This document shows, in pieces, positions 20 to 17,594 of a stretch of 36,482 bases of DNA. Position 1 is the first letter of the stretch, and every line of letters starts with the position of its first letter. The translations under genes were made by a program, and so were the position numbers. The notes beneath the pieces were generated by a model, which did no database searches, was not told the origin of the DNA, and worked only from the letters and a program-made list of their open reading frames with translations. Source of the DNA: Thermodesulfovibrionales bacterium (lineage in GTDB: Bacteria > Nitrospirota > Thermodesulfovibrionia > Thermodesulfovibrionales > CALJEL01); the NCBI GenBank assembly GCA_026417875.1, contig JAOACK010000014.1, positions 1 to 36,482 on the forward strand, in the 5' to 3' direction.

Positions 20-365
20 GAAGTCTATTAAGATGATTGTAATTAAAATCAAAATTTTTTTCTATATCACATAATATAACATTTAAACCAGCCTTCTTGA
101 TTGCAGAGGGCACGGAAAAACATGTATAGGCAGGGATAATTACGTTTGATCGCTCTCCTGAGAGCCTTTTTAAGGATTTAAGTATCAAATAAAGAGCTGA
201 TTTTCCTGATGAAAGAAGAAAGGTATATCTAACACCAAAGAATTCTTTTATTTCTTCTTCCAGTCTCGCAATAGCCTTATCTTCACTAAAAAAGCCCTTT
301 ATTGCATAAATAAAAGCCTTCCACTCAACAGGTGCAGCGGCAGGTGGTATAATTCTTTTAATCAT
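20..365 (-). CDS. DegT/DnrJ/EryC1-type PLP aminotransferase, N-terminal part (cut at contig end)
   Basis: About 115 codons are readable, starting at the ATG 365-363. The protein begins MIKRIIPPAAAPVEWKAF and contains SSGKSALYLILK and VIIPAYTCFSVPSAIKKAG. These are the cofactor-binding and substrate-loop segments at the N-terminus of sugar aminotransferases of this fold-type I family. Such enzymes usually aminate a nucleotide keto-sugar, but the catalytic lysine lies in the missing part, so the substrate cannot be inferred. The start codon overlaps the stop of the upstream FemAB-like gene as ATGA, which implies translational coupling and membership of the exopolysaccharide operon. It is not a pseudogene on this evidence: the break coincides with the adapter. 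Confidence 0.8.
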
Positions 366-1387
366 GGAAGATATTTTACAATTTTTGGTCCAATACTATT
401 TGTAATCAGAAGCGGCATTCTTTTCCAGATATTAATAGCAAGCCTGAACTTTGGATTATCCGGACTCAGATCCGCAACTGCTTTTCCATTACTGGTCCAG
501 TAATGCCAGTATAACTGATGAGGAGTAGCACCCCACTGTTCTTTAAACTTATACGTAGAGCTACCAAAGGTTGACCTGCCAAAATCAAAAAATTTATACC
601 CCCTGTTACAGGCAAACTCAAGACAGGACCAGTAAAGTAACATATTGGGTGCATACCTGTTAAATCTTCTTAGAGAGGATGCCCAGGGGATTTCAATTAT
701 ATCCTTGAATCCAAGAAGAATACCTGATGCTATCGGTTTACTGGTTGAATCAAAGACAACACAAATCCAGGCATCTTTATAAGACTTAAAAATATTTTTG
801 AAGAATTTTTTTGGATATACTGGTGTGCCTAGATCCCGCATATTTTCTGAAAAAACAGAATAAAAATAATCTAAACCCTCTTCACGAAAAAATTTATGGA
901 ACATTCTTTCTTTTAATGGCCTTCTGATCTGTGACCTGAGCTTAGAGGAAAAAGATCTCCAGAGATTCTCGGGATCTGATGGTAGCGATAATCTCATCGA
1001 GACTTTCTTTATCTTTGCAGGCTGATGAGGAAGAAGATTTCTAGTGTGCCTTAATTCAATAAAGGTAACCTTCTTTTTCTTTGCTACATTTATAGCTTCA
1101 TAAAGCAATAGATCAGTTATCTCATCCTTGTCAGAGCAAATACCCCCATAATTGAAGAAAGGAAGAGAAACTAAGAGATTTCCAAATAAACCCTTTATGT
1201 GTACCAGAGGCAGTATACCATTTATCCTCCCTTGATCCTCGCTGTAAAGATAATAAGTATCGTGTCCAAATGTATCTTCTATAACATCCTTCCATATACT
1301 TAAATGATAAAGTACTGAATTTGGCGACTTCATCACATAGAAATCCCAGACTTGGTATTCAGATTTCTGTAGCAGTCTTATTTTCAT
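362..1387 (-). CDS. FemAB-like/GNAT-fold protein of the XrtA/PEP-CTERM locus type
   Basis: This is a 341-residue protein of the FemAB/BioF2-like acyltransferase group, which has a double GNAT fold. Visible marks are the C-terminal FFDFGRSTFGSSTYKFKEQWG segment, typical of the FemAB-like proteins found in exosortase-associated exopolysaccharide clusters, and the preceding NMLLYWSCLEFACNRGYKFF helix. No signal peptide or membrane segment is seen, so a cytoplasmic enzyme that N-acylates or aminoacylates a glycan or lipid-linked precursor is likely; the substrate is unknown. It overlaps the VanZ-like gene upstream by 29 bases and the aminotransferase downstream by 4 bases. The family call is firm; the chemistry is inference. 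Confidence 0.82.
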   Translation of the reverse strand: MKIRLLQKSEYQVWDFYVMKSPNSVLYHLSIWKDVIEDTFGHDTYYLYSEDQGRINGILPLVHIKGLFGNLLVSLPFFNYGGICSDKDEITDLLLYEAINVAKKKKVTFIELRHTRNLLPHQPAKIKKVSMRLSLPSDPENLWRSFSSKLRSQIRRPLKERMFHKFFREEGLDYFYSVFSENMRDLGTPVYPKKFFKNIFKSYKDAWICVVFDSTSKPIASGILLGFKDIIEIPWASSLRRFNRYAPNMLLYWSCLEFACNRGYKFFDFGRSTFGSSTYKFKEQWGATPHQLYWHYWTSNGKAVADLSPDNPKFRLAINIWKRMPLLITNSIGPKIVKYLP

Positions 1388-1733
1388 GGAAAAAAATTTT
1401 TATGAGTAATATGCCAACATATATACCAATAAGGTCTAAACATATATCCATCCAAGAGGAGGTTCTGCCGGAAACAGTAGATTGATTCAATTCATCGCAA
1501 AGAGCTACAGTCAAGGATATAATTATCAAAAGATAAAACCCTATTCTTTTTCTTGGCCTTAAAGCAAGAAAAAGAAGAATCACAAGAAGGGTATAGAGCG
1601 GTATATGACCCATGTTCCAGAAAATTTTTTCTGTAAGGGTATCAGCGAAGTGCAGAGCAATATCGGGCAAGGAAGAGATATAGAATATGAAGAGGATATA
1701 AAGAACTGTAAGTATTAAATAAACCAATTTCAT
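1359..1733 (-). CDS. VanZ-like small membrane protein
   Basis: A 124-residue protein with four hydrophobic stretches, near residues 3-20, 43-60, 65-82 and 98-113. It carries the VanZ-family signature of an acidic DE pair (CDELNQ) followed by GRTSSWMDICLDLIGIYVG, where the GR-x-x-x-x-D and the final D-x-x-G positions are the conserved ones. VanZ-like proteins occur both in glycopeptide resistance loci and in exosortase-type exopolysaccharide loci, where their role is unknown. It sits between two GNAT-fold enzymes with a 29-base overlap downstream and a 4-base gap upstream, so it is part of the same transcript. A resistance function is not suggested by this context. Confidence 0.8.
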   Translation of the reverse strand: MKLVYLILTVLYILFIFYISSLPDIALHFADTLTEKIFWNMGHIPLYTLLVILLFLALRPRKRIGFYLLIIISLTVALCDELNQSTVSGRTSSWMDICLDLIGIYVGILLIKIFFHENKTATEI

Positions 1734-1737
1734 AAAT

Positions 1738-2823
1738 TCAGCGAAGAATGATCTTTCCTAAAGACTTGCAGAACTGCCAGGCGGAAATAAGTAAAGGAGC
1801 AAACCCTCTTTTATAAAATCGAATGGAAATCTGAGTGATAATTCTGTTTGACCAGTGGAATTTATAATGTTCAGTTCCCCTTAAAAAATCATAAATTTTA
1901 ATATTCTCCCTGATCGCCTTCTCAATAGCCATACCTATAATTAAATTACCGATACTTATCTGAGGTCTGAAGGCTTTATCTACAGCCATTGAGTAGAGAT
2001 AAAGGATATCATTATATTTAAGATGAAGGAGGCCGGCTATATATTTATCATTAAATGTCAAAAAGTCTAATTGAAAATAAGGATTACCCCTTTCATGGAT
2101 TCTAATAAAAAATTTCTGCAGAAACATTGTAAAGGATTTTGATAGAGCTCTACTCTTTTCATAGATAGTAAAAAAACTCTGTAGCTCTCCGGTCAAATCC
2201 CCATCTCCACCGCTTGAATAAGTAATGAGCCCTACCGCCCCCTCTCTTCTTAAGAGATTCAGATGCCTCCTGAACTGCTGCCTCCTGTGATTGGATAGGG
2301 AGGCGAAAAAATCATCTGTATTTTGAGGCAGCACAGTGACAGGACAGAAAAAACTTGGCTTTACGTGAATATACTTGCCTTGCTGCTCCATTTTTTCATA
2401 AAGATATAGAAAAAAAACAGATTGAGCATGAATGGGGCATAATTCCATTATATCCCAATCTCTTTCACTCATGAGAAAATCATAAATTAATTCTGACACT
2501 TCTTTTTCATAGCCTCGCTTTATGATTACATCGAGATAATCAGAGCCGCATTCGGGATAACCCAGAAAATATAACCTTCTTATTTTTAAGATAGAAGAGG
2601 GTGATTTCTCAATGTAAAAGGGCGCGATACCAATTATGTTCGTATTTTCTTCTACTAGAAGAATAAATAGGGATCGCATATTATTCCAGTTACACTCAGC
2701 CCAAGTAAACAACCACTCCCATGTTAGAAAAATCGTATTCGAGGAAGATCTTACTAAAAGCTCATTCCATTTTTCTCTGATACTTTTCCATTCCTCAAAT
2801 GAATTAATTTTCCTTATGTTCAT
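1738..2823 (-). CDS. GNAT/BioF2-like acyltransferase
   Basis: A 361-residue soluble protein that resembles the BioF2-like/CelD-type GNAT family of exopolysaccharide loci. The N-terminal half contains NTIFLTWEWLFTWAE, the usual opening of this family, and the C-terminal half has FRPQISIGNLIIGMAIEKAI followed by YDFLRGTEHYKFHWSN, which corresponds to the acyl-CoA or acyl-donor lobe. It probably acylates sugar residues or a lipid-linked intermediate. It is a second enzyme of the same fold in the operon but clearly divergent in sequence from the one at 362-1387. It overlaps the deacetylase gene upstream by 20 bases. Confidence 0.78.
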   Translation of the reverse strand: MNIRKINSFEEWKSIREKWNELLVRSSSNTIFLTWEWLFTWAECNWNNMRSLFILLVEENTNIIGIAPFYIEKSPSSILKIRRLYFLGYPECGSDYLDVIIKRGYEKEVSELIYDFLMSERDWDIMELCPIHAQSVFFLYLYEKMEQQGKYIHVKPSFFCPVTVLPQNTDDFFASLSNHRRQQFRRHLNLLRREGAVGLITYSSGGDGDLTGELQSFFTIYEKSRALSKSFTMFLQKFFIRIHERGNPYFQLDFLTFNDKYIAGLLHLKYNDILYLYSMAVDKAFRPQISIGNLIIGMAIEKAIRENIKIYDFLRGTEHYKFHWSNRIITQISIRFYKRGFAPLLISAWQFCKSLGKIILR

Positions 2824-3646
2824 TGAAGTAGAAAAAACCTATAGATTCAAATTTAAAATCTTTTAATATGCTTTCTATCTTTGAAAGGGTTTTGCGAATA
2901 TTGAAATAGTGCCTGAAAGAGGATCTGAGCCCTGCCCTTAAACGAGGCTGTTCTGTATCTATTTCCCAGGGATGAATATAAAGGATCGCCATACTCTTTT
3001 CCTTCTCATTTAATCTCTTAATGGCATATTTTATAAATTCAACAGGAAGAAGCCTCAAATATCCTCCTCCAGCAACTGGAATATTTAAACCTAAAAATCT
3101 CAGTGTGGAAGGTGGATACTCCATTATTGAACCTGCCTCTGTCTTAATAATGTGAGGGAATCTTTTTGCTTCAGGAATTCCATATACATCATGATGAATT
3201 GGAAAAATACTTGAATCGTAAACATATCCCTCTTCAACAAGAATATCAAGGGCCCATAAAGTCTTCTTTGAAATTGAATAGCTTGGAGCCCTGTAGCCAG
3301 CTATCCTTATACCGATTATATCCTCAAGAATTCTTTTTGAAATCTGGACATCCCGTCTAAACTCATCAGGAGATAAATCGTAGATAAGTTTGTGGTTATA
3401 ACCGTGGGAGGCAATCTCGTGTCCGCTTTCATAAATATCTCTCACAAGAGCAGGATACCTTTCAGCAACCCATCCCAACATAAAAAAGGTCGCCCTGACT
3501 GAAAATTTGGCCAGCACTTCAAGAATTTTGTATACATTTCTATCCACTCTGCATTCGAAATTATTCCATTCTTCAAATTTAATACAATGAGCAAAGGCAG
3601 ACACCATGAAATAATCTTCTACATCAACAGTCAGAGCATTAATCAT
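2804..3646 (-). CDS. Polysaccharide deacetylase (NodB/CE4 fold), XrtA-locus type
   Basis: A 280-residue CE4-family deacetylase. The catalytic motif 1 is TVDVEDYF near residues 6-13 (the aspartate pair), motif 2 is HEIASHGYNH near residues 75-84 (metal histidines in SHGYNH), and motif 3 is AGYRAPSYSI near residues 115-124. The C-terminal HPWEID segment carries the last conserved histidine. This arrangement, with the extra C-terminal extension ending in IRKTLSKIESIL, matches the deacetylases found in PEP-CTERM exopolysaccharide loci. No signal peptide is evident. It likely removes N-acetyl groups from the polymer or its precursor. The gene follows the ATPase gene after 9 bases. Confidence 0.88.
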   Translation of the reverse strand: MINALTVDVEDYFMVSAFAHCIKFEEWNNFECRVDRNVYKILEVLAKFSVRATFFMLGWVAERYPALVRDIYESGHEIASHGYNHKLIYDLSPDEFRRDVQISKRILEDIIGIRIAGYRAPSYSISKKTLWALDILVEEGYVYDSSIFPIHHDVYGIPEAKRFPHIIKTEAGSIMEYPPSTLRFLGLNIPVAGGGYLRLLPVEFIKYAIKRLNEKEKSMAILYIHPWEIDTEQPRLRAGLRSSFRHYFNIRKTLSKIESILKDFKFESIGFFYFNEHKEN

Positions 3647-3655
3647 AATTGAAAA

Positions 3656-4603
3656 TCAACCGTAAACCTTTTTATAAATCTCGCTTACAACTAATTCAAG
3701 CTGTCTTATTTTTAAGTCACACCTTACAAGGGCTTCCTTAATCTTTCTAAAATCACCATTAACATTTTTAATCGTATCTGATGCCATTTTAATATCCGGT
3801 CTATTACCTAAATCCTTTATTACATCACTAACAACAGAACTGTTTATAACCTTGGTTTTTTCTGAAAAAGCTATCAAAAGTAAAAAATCACACAAAATAT
3901 TTACAAGTCTGGGCACGCCCTTGCTGTATTCAAAAATCTGCTCCATCACTCCATCTTCAAATTTTACTGCATCCCGGTTGCCGGCAATTTCAAGGCGGTG
4001 GAAAATGTATTCTTCCATTTCCTCCCTGCTTAAAGGATTGAGATGTGTATAAACAGCGATTCTCTGTCTCAACTGAGCAAGCTGGGGACTCGCAAGCTTG
4101 CGGTCAAGTTCGGGCTGCCCGACAAGAATAATTTTTAGAAGTTTTTCTTTTTCAGTTTCTAGATTGGATAATAATCTTATCTCTTCCAGCTGATCGTAAC
4201 TCAAATTATGAGCCTCATCTATTATTAAAAGGGTTTTCTTTTCTTCAATATAATTATTGATCAAAAAATCTGTCAGATCTTTTAAAAGCACAGGCTTATC
4301 CCTGTTCTCAATTTTTAAACCGAACTCCTGATTTATCATTGAAATAAGTTGACTTGATGTGAGCATTGTATGGGAGAGACTTGCTACATCCACAGCATTA
4401 GATATTTTTTTTAAAAATGCCCTTATCAGAGTTGTCTTACCTGTTCCGATTTCTCCAGATATGACGATGAAATTGCAGCTGCTTAACATCCCGTATTCAA
4501 GATAGGTTAGTGCCCTTCTATGGGCCCTTCCTGAATAAAAAAAATCAGGATCAGGCGTCAACTGAAAGGGATTTTCTCTGAATCCAAAAAAGGAATTATA
4601 CAT
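3656..4603 (-). CDS. ExeA-like AAA ATPase of the XrtA/PEP-CTERM locus
   Basis: A 315-residue AAA-type ATPase. It opens with MYNSFFGFRENPFQLTPDP, the hallmark N-terminus of ExeA/GspA-related ATPases. Walker A is GEIGTGKTT at residues 50-58 and Walker B is TLLIIDEAHNL near residues 125-135. A sensor-type segment KIILVGQPEL follows, and the C-terminal tail has a short coiled-coil-like stretch. Proteins of this subfamily are consistently found in exosortase-associated exopolysaccharide operons, where they are thought to energise assembly or secretion. The partner outer-membrane protein is encoded one base upstream, so the two are probably translated together. Confidence 0.88.
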   Translation of the reverse strand: MYNSFFGFRENPFQLTPDPDFFYSGRAHRRALTYLEYGMLSSCNFIVISGEIGTGKTTLIRAFLKKISNAVDVASLSHTMLTSSQLISMINQEFGLKIENRDKPVLLKDLTDFLINNYIEEKKTLLIIDEAHNLSYDQLEEIRLLSNLETEKEKLLKIILVGQPELDRKLASPQLAQLRQRIAVYTHLNPLSREEMEEYIFHRLEIAGNRDAVKFEDGVMEQIFEYSKGVPRLVNILCDFLLLIAFSEKTKVINSSVVSDVIKDLGNRPDIKMASDTIKNVNGDFRKIKEALVRCDLKIRQLELVVSEIYKKVYG

Positions 4604-4604
4604 T

Positions 4605-5828
4605 TCAGAAAATATGCCTGTATTTAATGGTTATTATATTTTCTTCATATTCATCCCTGTCAATGCTTGAATTGTAAGAAGTGTACCCGTAACTCAGGAT
4701 AAGATTATCCTTTTCACTTATTGAATAATCAAGAGCTGTTGAAATCATGTACCGCTCTCTTTCTTCTTTTTCAGGTCTAAGTCTTTCATTTCTGTAACCT
4801 GCACTTATCCTATGCTGAAACCATGGATTATAATTTAAAGTTATACCTGGGCTTATGGCATAAGACTCATCGACTCGATCGGTTTCTAAATATTTACTCT
4901 TTTCATGAATAAGATTAAGGTTATAAATAATTCCTGTCCCGTACCTTATCGAAATTTCCTCTGACCTTACATCATAAATTCCGAGCTGAGCAGATGGTAA
5001 GGTATCTCTTCTTACATTAAAAGTCACATCGCCTTTGTCAAGAGCCCTGCTAAAGGATAATCTGTACAGAATAAATTTTTTATCAGTTCTGTCACCGAAA
5101 TTAATATATCTGTACCCAACGGACATAGTCATATTGCTTTTTTGGGAGAATTGATGGGAATAATATAAAGAATTGGTAATCAGCTCACTGTCCTCTCCTC
5201 TTTCAGGTCTATGCATTATAAAAATTGATTCGATTCCGGCTGCTGCTCTCAGGCTTAATTTCTTTTCAAATCTATTAAAAAATTCATGCATGACCCTATC
5301 AATACCTTCTGGATCCCTGAACCAGATGTTATAATATCGATAACCTGGATTCATCACCAAAGTATCGGTGAGATTTATTTTCAGATAGGGTGAAGCGGAA
5401 AAAATATTTCTGTCAGTCTTGTTCACCGTAATATTTGTCTCTGTTGATGGACGCCTGGGATCAATGATAGTCTTTGAAAATTCATCGGATAAATCAAGAT
5501 ATAAGAAATTTTTTACGATATCTATCTTTGTAGAGGCGTTCAGCAAATGGGAAGTATCATCATCTTTAAGTCGGCTGTAATAAATCCATCTGAAGGTATA
5601 ATCTAATGACATATCAAGTCTTATAGTTCTGTAGATGATATTGAAAGATGGTTCTATATAAGATATATATTCATGAGTCTTATCCGATGCCGATAGATAA
5701 AGGTTGTCATTGTATTCCTCTGATAAGGAAAGGGATGTCTTTATTTTTAGGTCAGCAGCCTCAGCCCGGAAGAAAAAGCATAAAACTAAAAAAATGCAAA
5801 GTGCTATGAAATATCTTTTCTCTGCCAC
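4605..5828 (-). CDS. Outer-membrane beta-barrel protein of the PEP-CTERM/XrtA locus
   Basis: About 407 residues if started at the GTG 5828-5826, giving MAEKRYFIALCIFLVLCF, a cleavable signal peptide ending near FFRAEAAD. An in-frame TTG at 5843 would add five residues inside the upstream gene and is less likely. The mature part is dense in alternating amphipathic strands rich in Tyr, Arg, Asp and Ser and ends in an aromatic C-terminus (IKYRHIF), which is the classic beta-barrel export signal. It matches the uncharacterised outer-membrane family of PEP-CTERM operons and may serve as the outer-membrane exit pore for polysaccharide. The GTG lies one base after the kinase stop. Confidence 0.8.
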   Translation of the reverse strand: MAEKRYFIALCIFLVLCFFFRAEAADLKIKTSLSLSEEYNDNLYLSASDKTHEYISYIEPSFNIIYRTIRLDMSLDYTFRWIYYSRLKDDDTSHLLNASTKIDIVKNFLYLDLSDEFSKTIIDPRRPSTETNITVNKTDRNIFSASPYLKINLTDTLVMNPGYRYYNIWFRDPEGIDRVMHEFFNRFEKKLSLRAAAGIESIFIMHRPERGEDSELITNSLYYSHQFSQKSNMTMSVGYRYINFGDRTDKKFILYRLSFSRALDKGDVTFNVRRDTLPSAQLGIYDVRSEEISIRYGTGIIYNLNLIHEKSKYLETDRVDESYAISPGITLNYNPWFQHRISAGYRNERLRPEKEERERYMISTALDYSISEKDNLILSYGYTSYNSSIDRDEYEENIITIKYRHIF

Positions 5829-5829
5829 A

Positions 5830-6609
5830 TCATCGCCCGTCAAAATAGTAAGGATATTTTATCCTTATCAGGGAAGAAGGAAAACAGTTCAGAACAATAC
5901 CGATTATCCTTTCTTTATTTAGAAGTGAAAGTGCCTGCCTGACAGAGTTCTTAGTCGTTTTTTTATCATTAATCACAAGAAGAACAGCCTCAGAAAGAAA
6001 GGCAAGCTGAATAGTATCGGCCGACGAAAGAATGGGTGGAGAATCGAGTATAATGTATTGATATCTTCGCTTCATCGCCTGAATGAATATTTTCATCTTT
6101 TCCTGCAGATACCTATCATTTATATCCTTCCCGCAGAAGACGATATCAAGATTTCCTATGTTAGTAGTCATTATAATCTTTGATAAATCAAAAGAGCCTT
6201 CAAGATAATGAGAAAGGCCGCTATTTTCGTTAATTCCAAGATAGTGATGTATAGATGGATGCTTGAGGTCGGCATCAATAAGAAGTATTCTGAAATCAGA
6301 CGATAGTGCAAGACTTACAGACAAATTTAAAGCAACAAGACTCTTACCGGCACCTGCATCAGGACTTGTAACGAGCAAAGTCCTGTTCTCTTCTATCGCA
6401 TGATCCTTAAAGATTCTTGCCTTTAACTTTCTGAACTGCTCAGATTCAAAAGAATCGGGTCTAATGAGACTTACCACATAGGGGCTGACATTATTAAGAT
6501 CGACCACCACAGGCTGAGGATCACCCGAAAAGTTATCTTCAAGGTTTTGTGCGACAAGATATTTTTTTTCCTTAAGGACTCTATTAAACGCTCTCTCCAG
6601 TATATCCAC
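5830..6609 (-). CDS. Tyrosine autokinase of CpsD/CapB (BY-kinase) type, XrtA-locus subfamily
   Basis: A 259-residue cytoplasmic BY-kinase. The P-loop is SPDAGAGKS at residues 82-90, Walker A' is LLIDADLKHPS, and Walker B is IILDSPPILSSAD. The C-terminus ends KYPYYFDGR, with tyrosines 252, 254 and 255 forming the short autophosphorylation cluster typical of these kinases. The cognate transmembrane activator is the chain-length protein encoded 9 bases upstream. In this class, cycles of phosphorylation control polymer length and export. Here kinase and activator are separate polypeptides, as in Firmicutes and exosortase loci, and not fused as in Wzc. Confidence 0.9.
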   Translation of the reverse strand: MDILERAFNRVLKEKKYLVAQNLEDNFSGDPQPVVVDLNNVSPYVVSLIRPDSFESEQFRKLKARIFKDHAIEENRTLLVTSPDAGAGKSLVALNLSVSLALSSDFRILLIDADLKHPSIHHYLGINENSGLSHYLEGSFDLSKIIMTTNIGNLDIVFCGKDINDRYLQEKMKIFIQAMKRRYQYIILDSPPILSSADTIQLAFLSEAVLLVINDKKTTKNSVRQALSLLNKERIIGIVLNCFPSSLIRIKYPYYFDGR

Positions 6610-6618
6610 TTAGACCTC

Positions 6619-8139
6619 CTAAAAATTAATTATCCTAAATCCTAAATATTTAAAAAGAATTTCATTTAACCATACAAAAAAGATCAGTAATAAATAGACA
6701 CCTGATGCTAGCAGTATTCTATTTTCCCTTGTCTTGCTAAAATAAGAATCAGGTATAATTTCGGGTATTACAGAAAGCACTGGTAATCTTAATTCTGATT
6801 CTATTTCATTTTCATCATTAAATCTTCCAGAAATGTAAAAAAGAGCAATCACAATTCCCGAAGCCAAGCTCAGCCCTATCAAAAAACCAGCAAGAATTAA
6901 ACTAGACCTGTCAGGTTTTTTGGGATAGTGCGGAACCTTTGCATATTCTGCGATTAAAATTGATTTTGGTATACCGACCAGTTCTAACTGGGCAGCCTCA
7001 ATCTTCTGGAAAAGATCATCGTAGAGTTTTTGATAGACCGATTTTTCACGCTGCAGATTAAGCCATTCCTGCCTTTCGCGCGATAATTTTTTTAATTTCT
7101 CCTCTGCGACAATTTGCTGACCGGATATCTCTGATATCTGGGTTTTGACTCTCTCTATCTCGCTTTCAATTTTTTTGATCTCCTCGTTTATTGAATATAT
7201 GACAGGATTTTCACTATTATCAGGATATTTTTTCATGTGATCTATCTGTTTTTTTAACTCCTCGATCTCCATCCTTGTCTTTATTACATCAGGATGATTA
7301 TCAGTATACCTAGCACTTAAGTTCAGCAGCTGATTGTTCAGTCTTGATAACCTCATAAAAGGAGACTCCTCAATTTCTGTCCCTCTGTAAGCAACGCTAT
7401 GTGCATCGGTTAATTGTTTGGCCAGGCTCTCTCTGGTAGCCTCGAGCTCCTTTAATTTGATTTCTAATTCTATTCGTGAAGCATGCAGGGCTTCAAAACC
7501 CCTGAGTAAGGGTGATTCCCTTTCAGGCACAAAATTTGGATTTCTATTTAGAAAATCCTGAATGAGTTTATTTATCTGATCAAGTTTTTGTTCATATTCA
7601 AGTAGCTTTTTTTGCGAGAACTCAGTTATACCAGATATGGTATTTTTCCGGATGGTATTTAAATATTCAATATAATCTCTGATCAAGGTGTTAACAAAAT
7701 CTGCCGCGTATATGGGATCTTTATGTCTGAAAAAGACCTTAACTTGAAAAATATTTCTTTCCCCTATTGTGTTAATATTGATCTTCAGTCTTGATTTTGT
7801 TTCTGATACAATTCTATCTTCGATTAAATTTTTATTTGATGCTGGATAAATCTTCTTAAGGGAATTTCTGACAAGTTCTTCTGAAAAGAGTCCCTCTTTA
7901 ATCATGGATAATTTTGAATCCACATTCAGCACTCTTGAACCTCTTAAAAAGGTACTCTCAAAAAGGGTATTCTCTACGAGAAAGGTAGAAGAAGCCTCAT
8001 ATTCAACAGGCATGAGGAAGCTACCCCAGGTAAAAATGGAAAGAATAACAAGAAAAATAATAATAAAAAATTTTTTTCTGCGAAGAATCTGAAACCAGTA
8101 ATAACGAATATTTAATGAAGGATTTTCTGATATATTCAT
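6619..8139 (-). CDS. Polysaccharide chain-length determinant (Wzz/GumC family), XrtA-locus type
   Basis: A 506-residue inner-membrane protein. The first membrane segment is near residues 24-44 (FFIIIFLVILSIFTWGSFLM), followed by a periplasmic Wzz domain (EYEASSTFLVEN) and long coiled-coil helices from about 190 to 390. A second membrane segment is near residues 410-432, preceded by the family motif AKVPHYPKKPDRSSLI (proline-rich). A third hydrophobic stretch lies close to the C-terminus. It lacks a kinase domain, which is supplied by the next gene. It sets chain length and bridges to the outer-membrane export protein encoded 9 bases upstream. Confidence 0.9.
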   Translation of the reverse strand: MNISENPSLNIRYYWFQILRRKKFFIIIFLVILSIFTWGSFLMPVEYEASSTFLVENTLFESTFLRGSRVLNVDSKLSMIKEGLFSEELVRNSLKKIYPASNKNLIEDRIVSETKSRLKININTIGERNIFQVKVFFRHKDPIYAADFVNTLIRDYIEYLNTIRKNTISGITEFSQKKLLEYEQKLDQINKLIQDFLNRNPNFVPERESPLLRGFEALHASRIELEIKLKELEATRESLAKQLTDAHSVAYRGTEIEESPFMRLSRLNNQLLNLSARYTDNHPDVIKTRMEIEELKKQIDHMKKYPDNSENPVIYSINEEIKKIESEIERVKTQISEISGQQIVAEEKLKKLSRERQEWLNLQREKSVYQKLYDDLFQKIEAAQLELVGIPKSILIAEYAKVPHYPKKPDRSSLILAGFLIGLSLASGIVIALFYISGRFNDENEIESELRLPVLSVIPEIIPDSYFSKTRENRILLASGVYLLLIFFVWLNEILFKYLGFRIINF

Positions 8140-8148
8140 ATTGTCTCC

Positions 8149-8982
8149 TTAAAACATTCCTGTTTTTACGATCACTATATCACCAGGCATGAGAGCCAGA
8201 TCTCCTTCCAAATCACCATTTTTCATAATATCACCAACCCTAACTGAAAGTTTCTTTACTCTTCCCTCTTCTCTTCTCACTACGACTACATCATTTTGCT
8301 TTGCAAATTCAGTAAACCCTCCACACTGAAGAATGGCATCAACAACTGTGAGGCCTTCTTTATAGGATAGGAGTGAGGGATTTCTGACTGCTCCCATAAC
8401 CTTAATTCTATTGTTAAAGTTATCAGCAAGTAAAATTATATCCCCTGGTTTCAATATTATATCCTGTGTCAGATCACCTTTTAAAAGGTTAGATAAATTA
8501 ACAATTAATTTTTTGCCCTCTCTTATAATTGAGGAATTACGAAAATCAATATCTTCTAAAGAGCCTACTTGAGCAAGCAATTGTAACAAAGACGTTTTTC
8601 TTTTTAATTGGATGACACCTGTTGATCCCTCTCGAGTGCCAGCCTCAACTGGAGAACTACTTCTCTGTTTTACAACATAGACCTTATAATTATTTATTTC
8701 TGAAACCATGATGCTTACGACTGGTGCCTTTATATATCGGGAGAGCTCATTCTCAATTATCTTTTTGACCTCCATGGGAGTTCTGCCTGCTACCTTGATG
8801 TCGCCGATAAGATGAAAAGAGATCTTTCCATCAGGTCTCACGGGTAACTCAGCAGTCATCTCAGGATTTCCCCATACGGATATACGAAGGATATCTTCTT
8901 CACCGATCAGGTAATCTCCGTCAAAACTCCAGGTAATGGCTGGGATGAAAATAAAGTACAGAATAATTAGAATATTTTTCAT
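8149..8982 (-). CDS. Polysaccharide export protein (Wza/GumB-like, SLBB)
   Basis: A 277-residue exported protein with a signal peptide (KNILIILYFIFIPAITWS) followed by the poly-export domain (YLIGEEDILRISVWGNPE ... VRPDGKISFHLIGDI) and two SLBB segments, the second beginning NRIKVMGAVRNPSL and ending in ALMPGDIVIVK. It should form the periplasmic/outer-membrane conduit that docks onto the chain-length protein. Unlike canonical Wza, no lipobox cysteine is visible at the cleavage region (TWSFDGD), so it is probably not a lipoprotein; the separate beta-barrel protein of this operon could supply the outer-membrane part. A 75-base gap with a perfect palindrome precedes it. Confidence 0.88.
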   Translation of the reverse strand: MKNILIILYFIFIPAITWSFDGDYLIGEEDILRISVWGNPEMTAELPVRPDGKISFHLIGDIKVAGRTPMEVKKIIENELSRYIKAPVVSIMVSEINNYKVYVVKQRSSSPVEAGTREGSTGVIQLKRKTSLLQLLAQVGSLEDIDFRNSSIIREGKKLIVNLSNLLKGDLTQDIILKPGDIILLADNFNNRIKVMGAVRNPSLLSYKEGLTVVDAILQCGGFTEFAKQNDVVVVRREEGRVKKLSVRVGDIMKNGDLEGDLALMPGDIVIVKTGMF

Positions 8983-9015
8983 AAATCTACCTCTTTTAAG
9001 TAAAGCTCCGCCTTC

Positions 9016-9032
9016 TCAGTCACAGTGACTGA
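9016..9032. repeat. Perfect 17-bp palindrome in front of the export gene
   Basis: TCAGTCAC-A-GTGACTGA is a perfect inverted repeat of two 8-base arms with one central base. It lies in the 75-base gap between the antiterminator gene and the export-protein gene, ending 33 bases before the export start codon. As RNA it could fold as a 7-bp stem with loop CAG (or CUG on the minus strand), but no U-run follows on the minus strand, so it does not look like a terminator for this operon. It may be an operator or a pause/antitermination element. Confidence 0.6.
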
Positions 9033-9057
9033 TTTTTAAATTACTCTAAAATATTTT

Positions 9058-9561
9058 TTAAGCTACCTCTAAATCAGAACCGTACAATTTTACGGCAACG
9101 CTTCTGCCTAAAATATGAATATTTACCACAAAGAGAAAAGAATCATCTTTTTTCTTTATAATTCCTTCGGCTCCTTTAAGTGGTCCATTCTTTACCCTTA
9201 TTCGTATACCTTCCTGCAACTCAGGGTATACATTTATCTGTTCAGGACTCCCAAGCAAAATTTTAAGGGATTCTATTTCCTCGGTAGATATTGAAGCAGG
9301 CCTTCCATAATCATTACAGAGAAATCTTACAACTCCTTTTGTTCTTAACACCGAAAGAAAGTACTCTGGTCTTGCTTCCATATATACAAAAAGGTATCCT
9401 GGAAAAAGAGGAAAATCTATCATTTTTTTTCTGTCTTTCCAGTGCCTGAGTATCTTTATTACCGGCAGGAATGTTTCAATATTTTTTTGAACCAGGGCAT
9501 TATACGTTTTAAATTCATGCCTTGACTTAACATATACTGCATACCAGTTATTAGAAAACAT
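9058..9561 (-). CDS. UpxY/RfaH-like NusG-family transcription antiterminator
   Basis: A 167-residue NusG paralogue. The N-terminal NGN domain starts NWYAVYVKSRHEFKTYNALV and includes FPLFPGYLFVY (residues ~58-68), and a C-terminal KOW segment contains VKNGPLKGAEGII. Specialised NusG paralogues of this kind are encoded inside polysaccharide operons and help RNA polymerase read through long transcripts. The ATG at 9561 is chosen because GGGGA lies just upstream; an in-frame TTG at 9579 would fall inside the preceding gene. It starts one base after the sugar transferase stop. Its likely target is the rest of the same 9-kb operon. Confidence 0.88.
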   Translation of the reverse strand: MFSNNWYAVYVKSRHEFKTYNALVQKNIETFLPVIKILRHWKDRKKMIDFPLFPGYLFVYMEARPEYFLSVLRTKGVVRFLCNDYGRPASISTEEIESLKILLGSPEQINVYPELQEGIRIRVKNGPLKGAEGIIKKKDDSFLFVVNIHILGRSVAVKLYGSDLEVA

Positions 9562-9562
9562 T

Positions 9563-10912
9563 TTATCTTCCCCTTCCAAGTATAATTACCCTAATTGTTT
9601 CGATTATAATCATTAAGTCAAAAAAAATCGACAAATGCTTTATATAAAAAAGATCATATCTGAGTTTCTCAATGGCATCTTCCACAGAGGCTCCATAAGG
9701 ATATCTTATCTGTGCCCATCCAGTAATTCCTGGCTTTACAAAATGTCTTTCGCTGTAAAAAGGTATTTCCTGCTTGAGCTTTTCCACAAATTCAGGACGC
9801 TCTGGTCTCGGGCCCACAAAGCTCATTTCACCTTTTATAACATTAAATATCTGAGGCAGTTCATCTAACCTTGTTTTTCTCAATATCTTCCCAATCCTTG
9901 TAATTCTGAGGTCATTCTTCTCTGCCCAGACCGGTCCGGTATCCTTTTCTGCATCAGGAACCATTGTTCTGAATTTATACATTACAAACTTCTTCTCCTT
10001 CTCTCCCGTCCTTATCTGGCGATACAATACCGGACCTCTGGAGTCAAGCTTGATAAGAAGTGCCACCAGGCACATAAGTGGAAAAGTAATAATTAAAATT
10101 GTAAATGCCATAATAATATCCATAATTCTCTTAGAAACTCTTTTCAAAAAGGTTATCTTAAAGCCATTGGAGAAAATAAACCAGCTCGGTGTGATATTCT
10201 CTATAAGTAATTTCCCTGTAAGCTGTTCATAAAAAGAAGGAGCATCTAGAACCTCTATACCGCTGAACTTACACATAAGTAAATCCCTTAAAGGTAAAGA
10301 ACCTCTCCTCTCACTGATTGATACAATAACCTTATTAGCCTTTTCTTTTAGAACTATTTCACCAAGTTTTTCCTCGCTGCACAGAACTTTCTCCCGGGGA
10401 ACAGCAATAACATCAGAGGAACAATGGACATACCCAGCAAGGGCATATTGATGATTTGTTGAAAGGATTAGGTTGCCAATCTTACTGGCAACAGGTCCTG
10501 TGCCCAGTATGAGAACCCTTTTTGCTAGAAGTGGCATATTCAGCAGAGACCTCCAGCCCCTATGCCATAAAAACTGATAAATACTGAAGGAAAAAATTGT
10601 AATTGCCAGAAGCCCCCTTCCGATTGTTAAAGAGGGTATAAAGTAAAAAATTACTGACAGTATAAATACAGACAAGATATTACATATAACAATTTTTAAA
10701 AAAATCATTTTACCTGAATCATTACTCTGGTTATATAGTTCTGCCAGAAAGGAGATTAGAATTACTACCACGGTAAAGATAAATATTTTAATTAATGGTT
10801 TTTCAATTACCTCATCAGCAGATAGTGTTCCAAATCTTAATAAGATGCCAGTAAAAAAACTTGTAACAGCCAGAACTACATCTCCCAATATGATAAAAAT
10901 TATTCTATTCAT
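9563..10912 (-). CDS. Polyprenyl-phosphate sugar-1-phosphate transferase (priming glycosyltransferase, EpsB-type)
   Basis: A 449-residue membrane protein with four or five N-terminal transmembrane segments (about residues 5-125), a nucleotide-binding-like central domain (RVLILGTGPVASKIG near 140) and a further membrane segment near residues 265-287. The C-terminal catalytic bacterial sugar transferase domain has RGPVLYRQIRTG, YKFRTM, RKTRLDELPQ and GEMSFVGPRPERPEF, with the essential DE and PRP motifs intact. It transfers a hexose-1-phosphate to undecaprenyl phosphate, which starts repeat-unit synthesis. This subtype is associated with PEP-CTERM loci. It follows the receiver-like gene by 7 bases. 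Confidence 0.92.
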   Translation of the reverse strand: MNRIIFIILGDVVLAVTSFFTGILLRFGTLSADEVIEKPLIKIFIFTVVVILISFLAELYNQSNDSGKMIFLKIVICNILSVFILSVIFYFIPSLTIGRGLLAITIFSFSIYQFLWHRGWRSLLNMPLLAKRVLILGTGPVASKIGNLILSTNHQYALAGYVHCSSDVIAVPREKVLCSEEKLGEIVLKEKANKVIVSISERRGSLPLRDLLMCKFSGIEVLDAPSFYEQLTGKLLIENITPSWFIFSNGFKITFLKRVSKRIMDIIMAFTILIITFPLMCLVALLIKLDSRGPVLYRQIRTGEKEKKFVMYKFRTMVPDAEKDTGPVWAEKNDLRITRIGKILRKTRLDELPQIFNVIKGEMSFVGPRPERPEFVEKLKQEIPFYSERHFVKPGITGWAQIRYPYGASVEDAIEKLRYDLFYIKHLSIFFDLMIIIETIRVIILGRGR

Positions 10913-10919: not shown

Positions 10920-11291
10920 TTACAGGATACTGTATCCATTAATATTTATATCTCCATCAATGACCTTCTGAATTACAGTTTTAAATTTATGATAATCAAG
11001 GGGTTTAATCATACAATAGGAAGAATTAAAATCATTCAACCACTTTAACAGGGTTTGATCAATATTGTCTGCCAGTACAAGGACCGGAATATTTTTCTTT
11101 TTGATCTCGTTAAAAAAGACTGCTCCGTAAGGATAACTAGTTACAACGAGGTCAAAGTCGTACTGATTGAGTTTAGAATTGATATTATCATTGACCATAG
11201 AAAAGATCTCTACTGCATAACCACTGCTGCCAAGGATTGCTTCACAAATTTTAGAAAATCCATATTCATCAATTATCAGAATTTTTTTCAT
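10920..11291 (-). CDS. Degenerate (pseudo) receiver-domain protein
   Basis: A 123-residue stand-alone receiver fold. Strand 1 has KKILIIDE with its acidic pair, and strand 5 has MIKP with the conserved lysine-proline. However, the strand-3 position that should hold the phospho-accepting aspartate reads DLVVTSYPYG, placing Ser52 where Asp is expected, and the strand-4 Thr/Ser position reads VLADN (Ala). It therefore probably cannot be phosphorylated in the usual way and may act by protein contact. It is the first gene after a sigma-54 promoter whose predicted start site almost coincides with its ATG. No Shine-Dalgarno sequence is visible. Confidence 0.75.
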   Translation of the reverse strand: MKKILIIDEYGFSKICEAILGSSGYAVEIFSMVNDNINSKLNQYDFDLVVTSYPYGAVFFNEIKKKNIPVLVLADNIDQTLLKWLNDFNSSYCMIKPLDYHKFKTVIQKVIDGDININGYSIL

Positions 11292-11303
11292 AATTAATAA
11301 GAA

Positions 11304-11318
11304 GCAAATATAATGCCA
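11304..11318 (-). promoter_or_regulatory. Sigma-54 (-24/-12) promoter of the exopolysaccharide operon
   Basis: On the minus strand the sequence is TGGCATTATATTTGC. It has GG and GC separated by exactly 10 bases and matches the consensus TGGCAC-N5-TTGC at all but one key base. It lies just downstream of the gene for a sigma-54 activator. The predicted transcription start is about 12 bases beyond the GC, at roughly 11292, which is next to the ATG at 11291. Confidence 0.82.
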
Positions 11319-11524: not shown

Positions 11525-12865
11525 TTAATTTAACTTAGATGTTTCCTTGGGAAACATAAGCGATAGTTCATTCAGCCTTTTATAAAGGGTCTTTCTGGAA
11601 ATACCAAGGAGCCTTGCAGCCCTTGATTTATTACCCCTACATTTTAAAAGGGTATCCCTTATAGCCAAAAGTTCCAGATCCTTTAAAGAATTGCATTGTT
11701 GCGATTCTTCGTCTTTATTACACACTATCTCTCTTGGTAAATCCCTGATAGTAATCTCATCTCCTTTTGCCAGCACTACGGCACGTTCAATTACATTTCT
11801 TAACTGCCTTACGTTCCCGGGCCAATGATAGTTTTTAAAAATGTCAAGAACTTGTTTCGAAAAAGTAAGGTGCTTATTCTCTTTTAGGGAAAATTGCTTT
11901 AAAAAAAGTTCTGCCAGTAAGGGTATGTCCTCCGTTCTTGCTCTTAGTGGAGGTAATGTTATTTGGACAACATTTATACGGTAATAAAGATCCTGTCTGA
12001 AGTTTCCTTTTTTAACTTCAAGCTCAAGATCACGATTGGTTGAACAGATAAGTCGGAAATCAACACTTATTTTTTTATTGCTTCCAAGGCGTTCTATTTC
12101 CTTTTCCTGTAGGACCCTCAGAAGCTTGGCCTGGAGATAAAAATCAAGCTCTCCTATCTCATCAAGCAATAATGTACCTGATGCAACCTCTTCGAAACGG
12201 CCTATTCTCCTTGAAATAGCTCCAGTAAAAGCACCTCTTTCGTGGCCAAAAAGTTCTGATTCGAGAAGTTCCTTAGGGATTGCGGCACAGTTTACTGCAA
12301 CAAAGGGCTTATTTTTTCTTGAACTTGTAAAATGTATTAATCTTGCGACCAGTTCTTTACCGGTACCTGTCTCTCCACAAACTAAAACATTACAGGTAGA
12401 ATCTTTAATGGACTTTATTACATTTAAAACCTTTTTCATTTCACTACTCTCTCCAATAAATGCATGTTCATCACTTAATGAATAAAATTTTCTTTTGAAT
12501 CTTTTCTCTTCCACTGCCTTTGATACAATTTCTTTAAGTTTTATATAATCTGGAGGTTTTATGAAATAATAAAAAGCTCCGAGTCTTAATGCAGAGACAG
12601 CTGATTCTACTGTTCCGTAGGCTGTGAGAAAAATCACAGGAATATCTGGATAATATTGGTTGATCTGTTCGAATAAATACATACCATCCTTATCAGGCAT
12701 TCTTAAATCTGTGATGATGCAGTCGAAGTCTTTTTGTCTAAGAAATTCAAGTGCCATTTCGACACTAGAAGCACCTTCAATAGTATAACCCTCATCAGTA
12801 AGAATGGCACTTAGGACTTTTATCGCATTGATTTCATCATCTACAATTAATACTTCTCCTCTCAT
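11525..12865 (-). CDS. prsR: NtrC-family sigma-54 response regulator (PrsR-like)
   Basis: A 446-residue activator with three domains. The receiver (1-120) has Asp53 in ITDLRMPDKDG and Lys103 in FIKPPDY. The AAA+ domain has Walker A GETGTGKE at 164-171, the sigma-54 contact loop GAFTGA at 211-216 and the DEIGEL Walker B. The C-terminal Fis-type helix-turn-helix has KSRAARLLGISRKTLYKRL. This domain plan and its position match the PEP-CTERM-box response regulators of exosortase loci, so the prsR name rests on context. Its ATG overlaps the kinase stop as ATGA, indicating a coupled two-component pair. The sigma-54 promoter 200 bases downstream is its obvious target. Confidence 0.88.
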   Translation of the reverse strand: MRGEVLIVDDEINAIKVLSAILTDEGYTIEGASSVEMALEFLRQKDFDCIITDLRMPDKDGMYLFEQINQYYPDIPVIFLTAYGTVESAVSALRLGAFYYFIKPPDYIKLKEIVSKAVEEKRFKRKFYSLSDEHAFIGESSEMKKVLNVIKSIKDSTCNVLVCGETGTGKELVARLIHFTSSRKNKPFVAVNCAAIPKELLESELFGHERGAFTGAISRRIGRFEEVASGTLLLDEIGELDFYLQAKLLRVLQEKEIERLGSNKKISVDFRLICSTNRDLELEVKKGNFRQDLYYRINVVQITLPPLRARTEDIPLLAELFLKQFSLKENKHLTFSKQVLDIFKNYHWPGNVRQLRNVIERAVVLAKGDEITIRDLPREIVCNKDEESQQCNSLKDLELLAIRDTLLKCRGNKSRAARLLGISRKTLYKRLNELSLMFPKETSKLN

Positions 12866-13863
12866 TTTGACACCTCAAATCGTAAATTTTTTGTGGGCAG
12901 ATAAATTTTTACTGATGTACCTTGCCCTTTAAAGCTATTTATTTCAATAAAACCTCCGTGAGATTTAATAATCTCTCTTGTGATGAAAAGTCCATAACCC
13001 CTTCCGCTTTCATTAGAAGGGAGGCAGTCATGTTTATCTTGAAACCCCATACCTGTATCAACTATCTCTATAACAACATAATTAGACGATACATCTTCTC
13101 TTAAATAGGTTCGGATATATAAATTCCCACCCCAAGGCATAGCTTCTATAGCGTTATTAATTATATTCAAAATTGCCTGTTCTATTTGAAATTGATTCAG
13201 AATTAAATCCGGAATCTTTCCGTATTCATAAAATGTTTTAATATTATGTGAACGAGTCTGGTAGGAAATATAGAGCTCTATTTTTTTCAATACATCATTT
13301 ATATTCATCTGAATCAACTCCGAGTCGGAGAGAGATGAGCTTAAAAATTTAGAAATAAAGTTATCAAGTCTCGATATTTCTTCATTCATGATCTTCAGGA
13401 ATTCTACAAGAGACTGATCATTTTTATATTTCTCACATATGTAGATAATTGCTCCCTTGATAGCATTTAGTGGATTTCTGAGACCATGAGCAAGAGAAGA
13501 GGCAGTCTTACCTATATCTATGAACTTTTTAGAGGCACTTAAATTTTGAATAAAGGAACAGGGCCGGAAGTTGCATACTGTTAATTTTACAAATTCGGGA
13601 GGCCTTTTTTCACCCAGGGGTTCTAATATTATATCTGCGGTCCCGCTATCAAAAAAACAATTAAAGCCAATATCTCTCAGATACATTTTTTTACTGTTTC
13701 GGAATATACTCAGTACGGCATCTCTTTTATCAATATATATCTTTGGTATAGCTTCAAAATATTTTTTTCCCACCAGCTCAGTATTTTTTATAAAACTCAA
13801 ATCTGATTCCCATTTTCTGATGGTCAATCTTTTATCAATAATCAGCGTTAATTTATCACCCAT
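12862..13863 (-). CDS. Cytosolic NtrB-like sensor histidine kinase, partner of the sigma-54 regulator
   Basis: A 333-residue histidine kinase without membrane segments. An N-terminal PAS-like region (about 1-105) contains three cysteines (FNCFF, VCNFRPC). The dimerisation/phosphoacceptor domain has SSLAHGLRNPLNAI with His126. The ATPase domain has the N-box NIINNAIEAM, G1 DTGMGF and G2 GRGYGLFITREI. Canonical PrsK kinases of exosortase loci are much longer and have many membrane helices, so this is a shorter, soluble alternative. The signal is unknown. The start has no clear Shine-Dalgarno sequence and lies very close to the predicted promoter. Confidence 0.85.
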   Translation of the reverse strand: MGDKLTLIIDKRLTIRKWESDLSFIKNTELVGKKYFEAIPKIYIDKRDAVLSIFRNSKKMYLRDIGFNCFFDSGTADIILEPLGEKRPPEFVKLTVCNFRPCSFIQNLSASKKFIDIGKTASSLAHGLRNPLNAIKGAIIYICEKYKNDQSLVEFLKIMNEEISRLDNFISKFLSSSLSDSELIQMNINDVLKKIELYISYQTRSHNIKTFYEYGKIPDLILNQFQIEQAILNIINNAIEAMPWGGNLYIRTYLREDVSSNYVVIEIVDTGMGFQDKHDCLPSNESGRGYGLFITREIIKSHGGFIEINSFKGQGTSVKIYLPTKNLRFEVSK

Positions 13864-14207: not shown

Positions 14208-14654
14208 CTATATAGCACCTGCCCTTTTAAGATAGGGAGCAAATCTCTGATCAACATTCAGGACGTGCTGTTTGAGCCAGTCCCTTACATATTCCACCAC
14301 CTCGGCTGTTAAAACAGGTTTACCTTCTGTAAAATCCTTATGAAGATTATAAACCTTTTCTCTGAAGCCCTTATGAGCGGAGCGATGGCTTTCAAGCTCT
14401 GGATATTTAAATTTTTCCATATAGGCCTCTTCAGTCATGAAATGAATAACAGTATATTCAAGAAGTTCATTTAACACATTACCAAGTTCCTTCATACCTA
14501 CGCCTCTGTACATTGCTTCCACAAGATTGTTATACAGAATGAATAATCTTTGATGCTGTGCGTCAATCTCAATTATATCAACCTTATATTTATTATCCCA
14601 CTCAATAAAAAGGTCAGTTTTTTTTCTCTTTAATATCCAGTCAAAGAGTCCCAT
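14208..14654 (-). CDS. Bacteriohemerythrin
   Basis: A 148-residue hemerythrin. The ligand set for the oxo-bridged di-iron site is visible: IDAQHQRLF (first His), HFMTEEAYM (His and Glu in HxxxE), ESHRSAHKGF (HxxxH) and KQHVLNVDQRF (HxxxxD). It should bind O2 reversibly in the cytoplasm, either as an oxygen scavenger or as a delivery protein for the flavodiiron enzyme of the same island. The start follows AAGGAGG. It is the last gene of the island and is 10 bases downstream of the iron-sulfur flavoprotein gene. It has a charged N-terminal leader (MGLFDWILKRKK) absent from the other hemerythrin here. Confidence 0.93.
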   Translation of the reverse strand: MGLFDWILKRKKTDLFIEWDNKYKVDIIEIDAQHQRLFILYNNLVEAMYRGVGMKELGNVLNELLEYTVIHFMTEEAYMEKFKYPELESHRSAHKGFREKVYNLHKDFTEGKPVLTAEVVEYVRDWLKQHVLNVDQRFAPYLKRAGAI

Positions 14655-14664
14655 ATGAGCCTCC

Positions 14665-15234
14665 TTACTTCAATAATCTCAGACCCGCATCATAAACCCT
14701 ATGAAGTGCATCGGGTACCTCAAGTATGGCGCCCTTTGCATCCACGCCGAGGAAGCTGACCGTCTCGTGCTCAGGAACACTTATAGTCCTGAAAAAAGCT
14801 TTAGCAGTGGCTTCAGAGCACTGAATCCCTATCTCCTTCTTCATACCACCTACCAGTATCAAAAGACCTTTCCTTCCCTCTGGACCTTCAGGAATGGGTT
14901 TTTTAAGAAGGTATTTTTCACACCAGAAGGACTGGCATCTATCAATCATTACCTTTGCCTGTGCACTCAGGCTGAAAAAGAAAACAGGAGAGGCAAGGAT
15001 AAACCTGTGCCCCTCCCTTATGGCATCGTATATCTCTGCCATATCATCATTAATTATGCATCTTCCTGAAGTCTCGCAGCCACCACAATCCTGGCAGGGC
15101 TTTATATTCATGAGATTGAGATTGAAGAGGATAATCTCATGGCCTGCCTCTTTTACGGGTCTCAGACATTCCTTTATAAGGATATCTGTATTTCCTTCTA
15201 CCCTGGGGCTTCCATTAAAGGCAACTATCTTCAT
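14665..15234 (-). CDS. Iron-sulfur flavoprotein (Isf-like, NADPH-dependent FMN reductase fold)
   Basis: A 189-residue flavodoxin-like protein starting KIVAFNGSPRVEGNTDIL, the phosphate loop for FMN. A compact cysteine motif follows at residues 47-59 (C-x2-C-x2-C-x5-C, from PCQDCGGCETSGRC), which is the [4Fe-4S] motif of archaeal and bacterial Isf proteins. SPVFFFSLSAQAKVMIDRC is the second flavin contact. Isf proteins have been linked to reduction of O2 and H2O2, which fits the neighbours. Its ATG overlaps the stop of the rubrerythrin frame as TAATG, so it was coupled to full-length rubrerythrin translation; the amber codon upstream may reduce its expression. Confidence 0.85.
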   Translation of the reverse strand: MKIVAFNGSPRVEGNTDILIKECLRPVKEAGHEIILFNLNLMNIKPCQDCGGCETSGRCIINDDMAEIYDAIREGHRFILASPVFFFSLSAQAKVMIDRCQSFWCEKYLLKKPIPEGPEGRKGLLILVGGMKKEIGIQCSEATAKAFFRTISVPEHETVSFLGVDAKGAILEVPDALHRVYDAGLRLLK

Positions 15235-15728
15235 TATTCAATCTTCTTGAATGCCTGTTTCTTTGCACCGCATACAGGACATTCATCAGGTGGTTCATTT
15301 TCAAAAGTATTTCCGCATACCTGACATACATAGTAATCTACTTCAGCATTCTTTCCGAGGTTCTCAAGTGCCTTCCTGTAAAGATCTGCATGTATCTTTT
15401 CTACCTAATTGGCGAACTGAAAGCTCTTCAGAGCGCCTACTCTTCCTTCAGATTCTGCATCCTTTATCATTTGAGGATACATGCTTTCAAATTCATAGGT
15501 CTCTCCATTAATTGCTGCCTGCAGATTTTCTTTAGTTGATTTAATAGCTCCAAGTTCTCTCAGATGATTCATAGCATGGACCGTTTCTGCCTCGGCAGCT
15601 GCCCTGAAAAGCTTGGCTATCTGTCTGTATCCTTCCTCCTCTGCCTTCTTTGCAAAGGCGAGATATTTTCTATTCGCCTGTGATTCTCCTGCAAAGGCTT
15701 CAAGGAGATTCTTCTCAGTCTTTGTCAT
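15234..15728 (-). pseudogene. Rubrerythrin interrupted by an in-frame amber codon
   Basis: The frame encodes a whole rubrerythrin of 165 codons including the stop, but codon 108 (15407-15405) is TAG. Before it are the di-iron ligands Glu15 (AGES) and Glu48/His51 (AETVH). After it, in the same frame, come the second ExxH (VEKIH, Glu110/His113) and a complete rubredoxin domain (YVCQVCGN ... DECPVCGA). Homologues usually have Glu or a similar residue at this point, so one G-to-T change (GAG to TAG) explains it. The 107-residue product would lack the fourth helix and the rubredoxin centre. Options are a recent nonsense mutation, a sequencing error, or suppression. No second defect is visible. AAGGAGG precedes the ATG. 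Confidence 0.88.
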
Positions 15729-15739
15729 GCGCTTCCTCC

Positions 15740-15877
15740 TTAACGAACTCTCTCAAAGGCGTCTTTCGGTGCATTGCAGACAGGACATCTCCAGTCATCT
15801 GGAAGTTTTTCAAAAGGTATACCCTCTTTCCCTTCATCATATTCATAACCGCATATGGTACATCTCCATACAGCCAT
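15740..15877 (-). CDS. Rubredoxin (45 residues)
   Basis: A short rubredoxin starting [19 protein letters not shown] and ending in [16 protein letters not shown]. Both CxxC pairs that bind the single iron are present (CTIC and CPVC), as is the aromatic core. It carries electrons to the flavodiiron protein encoded 9 bases upstream and to rubrerythrin downstream. AGGAGG lies 5 bases before the ATG, and its stop overlaps the ribosome binding site of the rubrerythrin gene (TAAGGAGG). It is slightly shorter than typical rubredoxins of 52-54 residues but complete in its metal site. Confidence 0.93.
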
Positions 15878-15886
15878 ATTTACCTC

Positions 15887-17101: not shown

Positions 17102-17162
17102 CTTTTCACCTCCTTTTCGAAAATTAGAATCAAGCTAATTCAGGAAAACAAAATCTCTTTAC

Positions 17163-17579: not shown

Positions 17580-17594
17580 AAAAACCTCCTTCAT

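Follow-up and report, generated by a model that had tools for sequence, protein, structure and literature searches.

Evidence for a sigma-54 promoter placed almost at the start codon of an orphan receiver gene in a Thermodesulfovibrionales bacterium, probably one of a recurrent near-leaderless class in the order

The sigma-54 sites that precede PEP-CTERM genes lie on average 71 nt, and at the least 23 nt, from the start codon (Haft 2006; PMC1569441). The locus described here resembles the PEP-CTERM sigma-54 regulon with its PrsK/PrsR pair (PMC1569441) in that a sigma-54 promoter, a 17-nt upstream motif and an NtrC-type regulator with a kinase occur by XrtA/exopolysaccharide (EPS) genes. It differs in that only 12 nt lead from the promoter to the start codon, a spacing below the range of Haft 2006 because the minimum there is 23 nt; in that the promoter leads an orphan receiver gene and EPS genes, whereas PEP-CTERM genes are led in PMC1569441; and in that the upstream motif reads TGTWTCC-N3-GGAWACA, in contrast to the TTTACA end of the motif in that study. 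Unlike PrsR and PrsK, moreover, the regulator, although PrsR-like, scores below the TIGR02915 cut-off (399.1 versus 502.6 bits) and the kinase below that of TIGR02916 (63.7 versus 300 bits). Membership of the pair in PrsK/PrsR was rejected because both cut-offs were missed.

Leaderless genes of Deinococcus-Thermus (PMC12340547), C. jejuni (PMC3847290) and B. japonicum (PMC4842269) carry -10 boxes of the sigma-70/RpoD type in the portions of those reports available. The present gene is like these -10-adjacent leaderless genes in that transcription is predicted to start at or near the start codon with no Shine-Dalgarno (SD) sequence, and is unlike them in having an activator-dependent sigma-54 -24/-12 element. 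The available part of the C. jejuni dRNA-seq study places the end of the sigma-54 motif 8-13 nt before the transcription start (PMC3847290), which agrees with the 12-base step applied here. For S. meliloti, 171 leaderless and 112 RpoN start sites are reported (PMC3616915); single leaderless sigma-54 cases may exist there, since the part of the paper available gives no overlap of the two sets. In D. vulgaris the response regulator DVU2934 targets lpxC according to the excerpt available (PMC3333781), a likeness to the lpxC promoters described below as regulator targets, although in other organisms and with another motif. Sigma-54 has been linked to the bacterial exterior (Francke 2011, in the part available), and the genes found here fit this link. 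Within the excerpts returned by a literature search on leaderless sigma-54 messages, no statement of such a class was found.

In the window, meaning the whole 36,482-nt stretch that was analysed (Table 1), the 233-nt gap between the regulator and receiver genes carries TGGCATTATATTTGC, with GG and GC 10 nt apart in a TGGCA-N6-TTGC context at 11304..11318. A sequence-only reading of this DNA had claimed a -24/-12 element here, and position, coordinates and spacing are all as it described. On the minus strand, 12 nt (TTCTTATTAATT) separate C11304 of the -12 GC from the ATG at 11291, which is the sole ATG, GTG or TTG in the receiver frame ahead of the receiver motif. A 12-base step from the GC leads to 11292, one base 5' of this ATG, and the predicted start of transcription is the first base of the ATG or a position 1-2 nt 5' of it. 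That the ATG has no SD sequence, a further claim of that reading, was borne out by an anti-SD pairing energy of +1.9 kcal/mol over the 20 nt 5' of it, which amounts to none. The absence is weak evidence when taken alone because many other genes in the window also have no SD sequence (17 of 34 reach -6 kcal/mol or lower). The sigma factor gene rpoN (PF04552) was detected in 41 of 41 genomes tested, the source genome included.

Table 1. Positions of the promoter, the candidate enhancer and the genes around them in the window
Feature	Coordinates	Strand	Basis
Sigma-54 -24/-12 promoter element TGGCATTATATTTGC	11318..11304	minus	Exact motif match and conservation in relatives
Predicted transcription start	11291..11293	minus	11-13 nt past C of the GC; sigma-54 geometry
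Orphan receiver-like protein, 123 aa	10920..11291	minus	First gene past the promoter; ATG 11291 without SD
17-bp palindrome TGTTTCCTTGGGAAACA, likely enhancer (UAS)	11540..11556	unstranded	Perfect copy; consensus in relatives
NtrC-family response regulator (receiver, Sigma54_activat, Fis-type HTH)	11525..12865	minus	Domain profiles
Histidine kinase	12862..13863	minus	Domain profiles; stop overlaps regulator start by 4 nt
epsB_2-type sugar transferase (TIGR03013)	9563..10912	minus	544.7 bits, cut-off 393.35
Remaining XrtA/PEP-CTERM-type exopolysaccharide cluster	362..9579	minus	Co-directional; profile matches

Among 176 genomes of the order, 34 contain relatives of the receiver at E <= 1e-12. 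Named contigs contributed 37 loci, most of which carry the label Nitrospirae/Nitrospirota, with one Thermodesulfovibrionales (L076) and a few Desulfuromonadales/Geobacteraceae/Deltaproteobacteria among the rest. The non-redundant set comprises 41 loci, with partial or broken loci (L018, L020, L081, L094) and one without an anchor (L082) left out; L095 gave no model match. Under a cut of at least 15 of 17 in site score and a gap of 10-22 nt, chosen after the relatives' loci had first been viewed, 24 of the 41 loci have a GG-N10-GC site 12-21 nt 5' of the start codon (median 16). These near-site loci span several Nitrospirota families and also include a Geobacteraceae MAG (L072) and a MAG labelled Deltaproteobacteria (L073). 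An equally good site has a probability of 4.2e-4 per position, and the chance expectation of near sites was estimated at less than one locus. Across the near loci the promoter columns GG, A and TTGC each hold 2.00 bits and the bases between site and start are unconserved, so the conservation of the near site is not mere relatedness. Conservation in relatives was a check that the sequence-only reading had named, and its outcome supports the nearly leaderless message proposed there.

An SD sequence at -6 kcal/mol or lower precedes 1 of 24 near loci versus 8 of the 17 receiver loci without a near site, where near loci were scored at the chosen start and far loci at the best of several candidate starts. 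Counting 11 nt from the C to +1, the near loci would have leaders of 1 to 10 nt. Placed on the receiver tree, the near/far label requires 5 changes, against a mean of 13.4 for shuffled labels, with none of 500 shuffles as low. The 17 loci lacking a near sigma-54 site include all of family f4, in which 7 of 7 receiver loci have no sigma-54 site scoring at least 15.

The second conserved feature upstream of the receiver is the palindrome. Its consensus, TGTWTCC-N3-GGAWACA, occurs with at most two mismatches upstream in 37 of 40 receiver loci (L046 was left out as too short) versus 0.25 expected from block-shuffled sequence, and relatives often carry two or three copies approximately 50-60 bp apart. 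The window holds a single copy at that tolerance, a perfect one within the last codons of the regulator gene and ~256 bp ahead of the predicted transcription start. Other loci of the source genome, 179,468 nt in total, yielded no copy at one mismatch or fewer; the UAS therefore looks specific to the receiver locus, and the idea that it is common to the other sigma-54 loci of the genome was rejected. The NtrC-type regulator is the likely binder of the palindrome, and a natural candidate because its gene adjoins the orphan receiver in most of the relatives' loci. In family f4 (L015, L016, L017, L048, L049, L051, L057) the palindrome is kept between regulator and receiver without a recognisable sigma-54 site; several of these loci have a second palindrome-like TGTATCCAAAATACA slightly downstream, and EpsB is found upstream of the regulator instead.

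Sites close to start codons recur elsewhere in the source genome, where 16 of 37 exact sites were called intergenic. Nine of these precede genes at a gap of 36-181 nt with SD energies of -8.7 to -13.3, six precede genes at 12-19 nt with no SD sequence, and at one no gene was called. The near six encode the orphan receiver, an FlgF/G-like rod protein, a second receiver (GTG start, Asp retained), two TPR-like proteins and LpxC. In the frame of the rod protein a second, later ATG is preceded by a moderate SD sequence (-6.6); its use would cut the rod motif. A cNMP/CBS/DUF294 protein (L140; gap 19, no SD) makes a seventh near case; its site was called inside a gene, since there is another in-frame ATG 69 nt upstream.

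Across 41 genomes, TGGCAY-N5-TTGCW followed by an ATG within 4-34 nt gave 461 matches, versus 154 when the spacer was lengthened by one base. Chance was judged by a spacing-broken control of this kind. In the ten genomes listed in full, an ATG at 11-19 nt was found 60 times against 13 in the control, compared with 23 against 13 at 5-10 nt, 27 against 12 at 20-27 nt and 34 against 15 at 28-35 nt. In the same ten genomes an SD sequence at -6 kcal/mol or lower accompanied 2 of 60 matches at 11-19 nt versus 17 of 34 at 28-35 nt. When the first match per genome was followed up in 30 loci, 14 had an ORF of at least 118 codons at the ATG, some of them named by N-terminal likeness only: LpxC (three), DUF294-type (three), FlgF/G (two), receiver-like (two), pilin-like, HAMP/GAF sensor, TPR and thioredoxin-like. 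About half of the single motif matches are thus chance or very short genes, since 16 of the 30 loci have no ORF of at least 100 codons at the ATG.

The lpxC gene product carries out the committed step of lipid A synthesis. LpxC was present in 60 of 61 genomes, and in the best 30 of the 60 matches (L205-L234), which are not a random draw, a sigma-54 site stands close before the start in all 30 loci, order-wide. Twenty-nine of these best-matching loci were parsed by script: all 29 have a site scoring 16 or 17 at 13-33 nt from the nearly invariant MRxQRT start, 26 have a gap of at most 21 nt, and none has an SD sequence at -6 kcal/mol or lower. In the thirtieth (L234) the site is 20 nt from the start; lpxC of the source genome is locus L139. 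A strict pattern of promoter plus MRxQRT matched 93 of 395 genomes of the phylum; as we counted the listed matches, 86 fall among the 134 genomes of the order, 3 among the 33 others of its class and 4 among the remaining 228. No strict match occurred among the listed genomes of family f9; lpxC is present in f9 genomes G009, G021, G031, G041 and G051 with the strict pattern unmatched.

From these comparisons we consider it quite probable that the element at 11304-11318 is a working sigma-54 promoter giving a near-leaderless message, and that it is one of a recurrent class in the order. The best reading of that class is of sigma-54 messages with predicted leaders of ~0-10 nt and SD-free translation; members with a gap of 19-21 nt (leader of 8-10 nt) are short-leadered and not strictly leaderless. 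The class would coexist with ordinary sigma-54 genes that have leaders of at least 25 nt and strong SD sequences. The earlier remark that such an arrangement is unusual for sigma-54 genes needs qualifying for Thermodesulfovibrionales, where it recurs (lpxC, FlgF/G-like, cNMP/CBS/DUF294, TPR and other receivers).

An unlikely alternative is that the promoter serves the EPS genes only, the receiver being made by read-through from the kinase and regulator genes while the first cistron of the sigma-54 message is poorly translated. The EPS genes are co-directional downstream, the kinase and regulator genes directly upstream share this orientation, and epsB_2, which begins 7 nt past the receiver stop and itself has no SD sequence, could be coupled to that stop. 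The longer message, however, would still have no SD sequence before the receiver, and 24 loci retain the near position, as do other genes, lpxC among them, in which the coding start itself is the conserved feature. Several sister loci in which the sigma-54 site is 47-184 nt away also have SD-like starts (L054, -8.6; L084, -5.8; L085, -6.1), although L050 and L088, likewise with a far site, do not. The earlier suggestion of a promoter for the genes that come next probably also holds, as the EPS genes follow co-directionally after 7 nt, but it does not replace the nearly leaderless reading.

Motif counts bear on a second alternative, that the 15-mer is a chance motif and some other promoter drives the receiver. 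At one mismatch the window contains 11 matches versus 7.3 expected, and 16 of 100 shuffles reach 11; the whole 2.0-Mb draft genome contains 37 matches with the correct N6 spacing (212 in all for N3-N9), against ~29 on average for each of the other six spacings. By counting alone the 15-mer is therefore within chance, in window and genome alike, and genome-wide enrichment of the exact motif was rejected as proof because the spacing control left little total excess. A reversed-pattern control (37 versus 1; 94 versus 3) was set aside as biased, since reversal creates CpG-rich patterns and is misleading. The site at 11304-11318 nevertheless rises above chance because it is conserved in relatives and accompanied by an enhancer-like palindrome; with the class-wide excess added, we regard a chance origin as very improbable.

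The idea that the receiver is started elsewhere, behind a leader of normal length, was rejected and merits almost no credence: GTG and TTG starts are often misread and some relatives have several candidate starts, but the frame has no canonical start other than ATG 11291, which opens the receiver fold directly (MKKILIIDE), the start codon of other loci is still 12-21 nt from the GC despite quite different spacer sequence, and the spacing recurs at lpxC with its MRxQRT start.

Returning to a working promoter with a near-leaderless message, we infer that the histidine kinase/NtrC-type regulator pair beside the receiver is the likely switch. Bound to the palindrome at 11540-11556, which lies within the 3' end of the regulator gene itself, the regulator would loop to sigma-54 polymerase at 11304-11318, with transcription from about 11291-11293. 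The message would have its 5' end at, or 1-2 bases from, the AUG of the pseudo-receiver and would run on into the EPS genes. Because there is no room for an SD sequence, the first cistron would be translated by leaderless-type (5'-AUG) initiation.

Whether this Nitrospirota order has a conserved envelope and surface regulon (lpxC, flagellar rod, exopolysaccharide switch, cNMP/CBS) on leaderless sigma-54 messages is a proposition on which we are evenly divided. If true, an enhancer-binding protein and 5'-AUG initiation would set expression of the regulon and the 5'-UTR would have no part in its control; this would be the sigma-54 equivalent of the "-10 adjacent to ORF" mode. A conserved class would couple the most tightly activator-gated promoter type to SD-free translation, and would put the committed step of lipid A synthesis under SD-free sigma-54 control in a whole order. 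Such a class would also supply a rule for annotating start codons and calling sigma-54 targets; orthologues whose promoters are near in some cases and far in others would be a natural set in which to test why leaders vanish.

The first gene of the message encodes a protein that, aligned with the receiver domain of the neighbouring regulator, is 30% identical, and that falls below the Pfam cut-off (15.1 versus 30.2 bits). It carries Ser at the aligned position of the phospho-acceptor Asp and does not qualify as a phosphorylatable PF00072 receiver. A TSYP-like motif is found here in 34 of 41 relatives, with Ser or Asn at that place in the other seven. The pseudo-receiver probably acts by contact and not by phosphorylation; we conjecture that it may feed back on the kinase/regulator pair, as its place beside the regulator suggests. 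The orphan pseudo-receivers (TSYP and KPLDY motifs) form a family with no Pfam or NCBIfam match above cut-off that travels with the NtrC-type regulator.

The XrtA/PEP-CTERM-type exopolysaccharide cluster headed by the promoter continues beyond epsB_2 with genes for a NusG-like protein, an export protein (TIGR03027), a chain-length protein, a tyrosine autokinase-like protein, an outer membrane protein (TIGR03016), an ATPase (TIGR03015), a deacetylase (TIGR03006), two GNAT/FemAB-like proteins and a VanZ-like protein. Elsewhere in the window, positions 20691-22195 form a stretch of ~1.5 kb without an ORF of 80 aa or more. The region 14208-20246 encodes two hemerythrins, a flavodiiron-type protein, a ferritin-like protein and an FMN reductase by Pfam, together with an apparent peroxiredoxin and Fur-type regulator by reading of the sequence, and this cluster reads as an oxygen-defence block.
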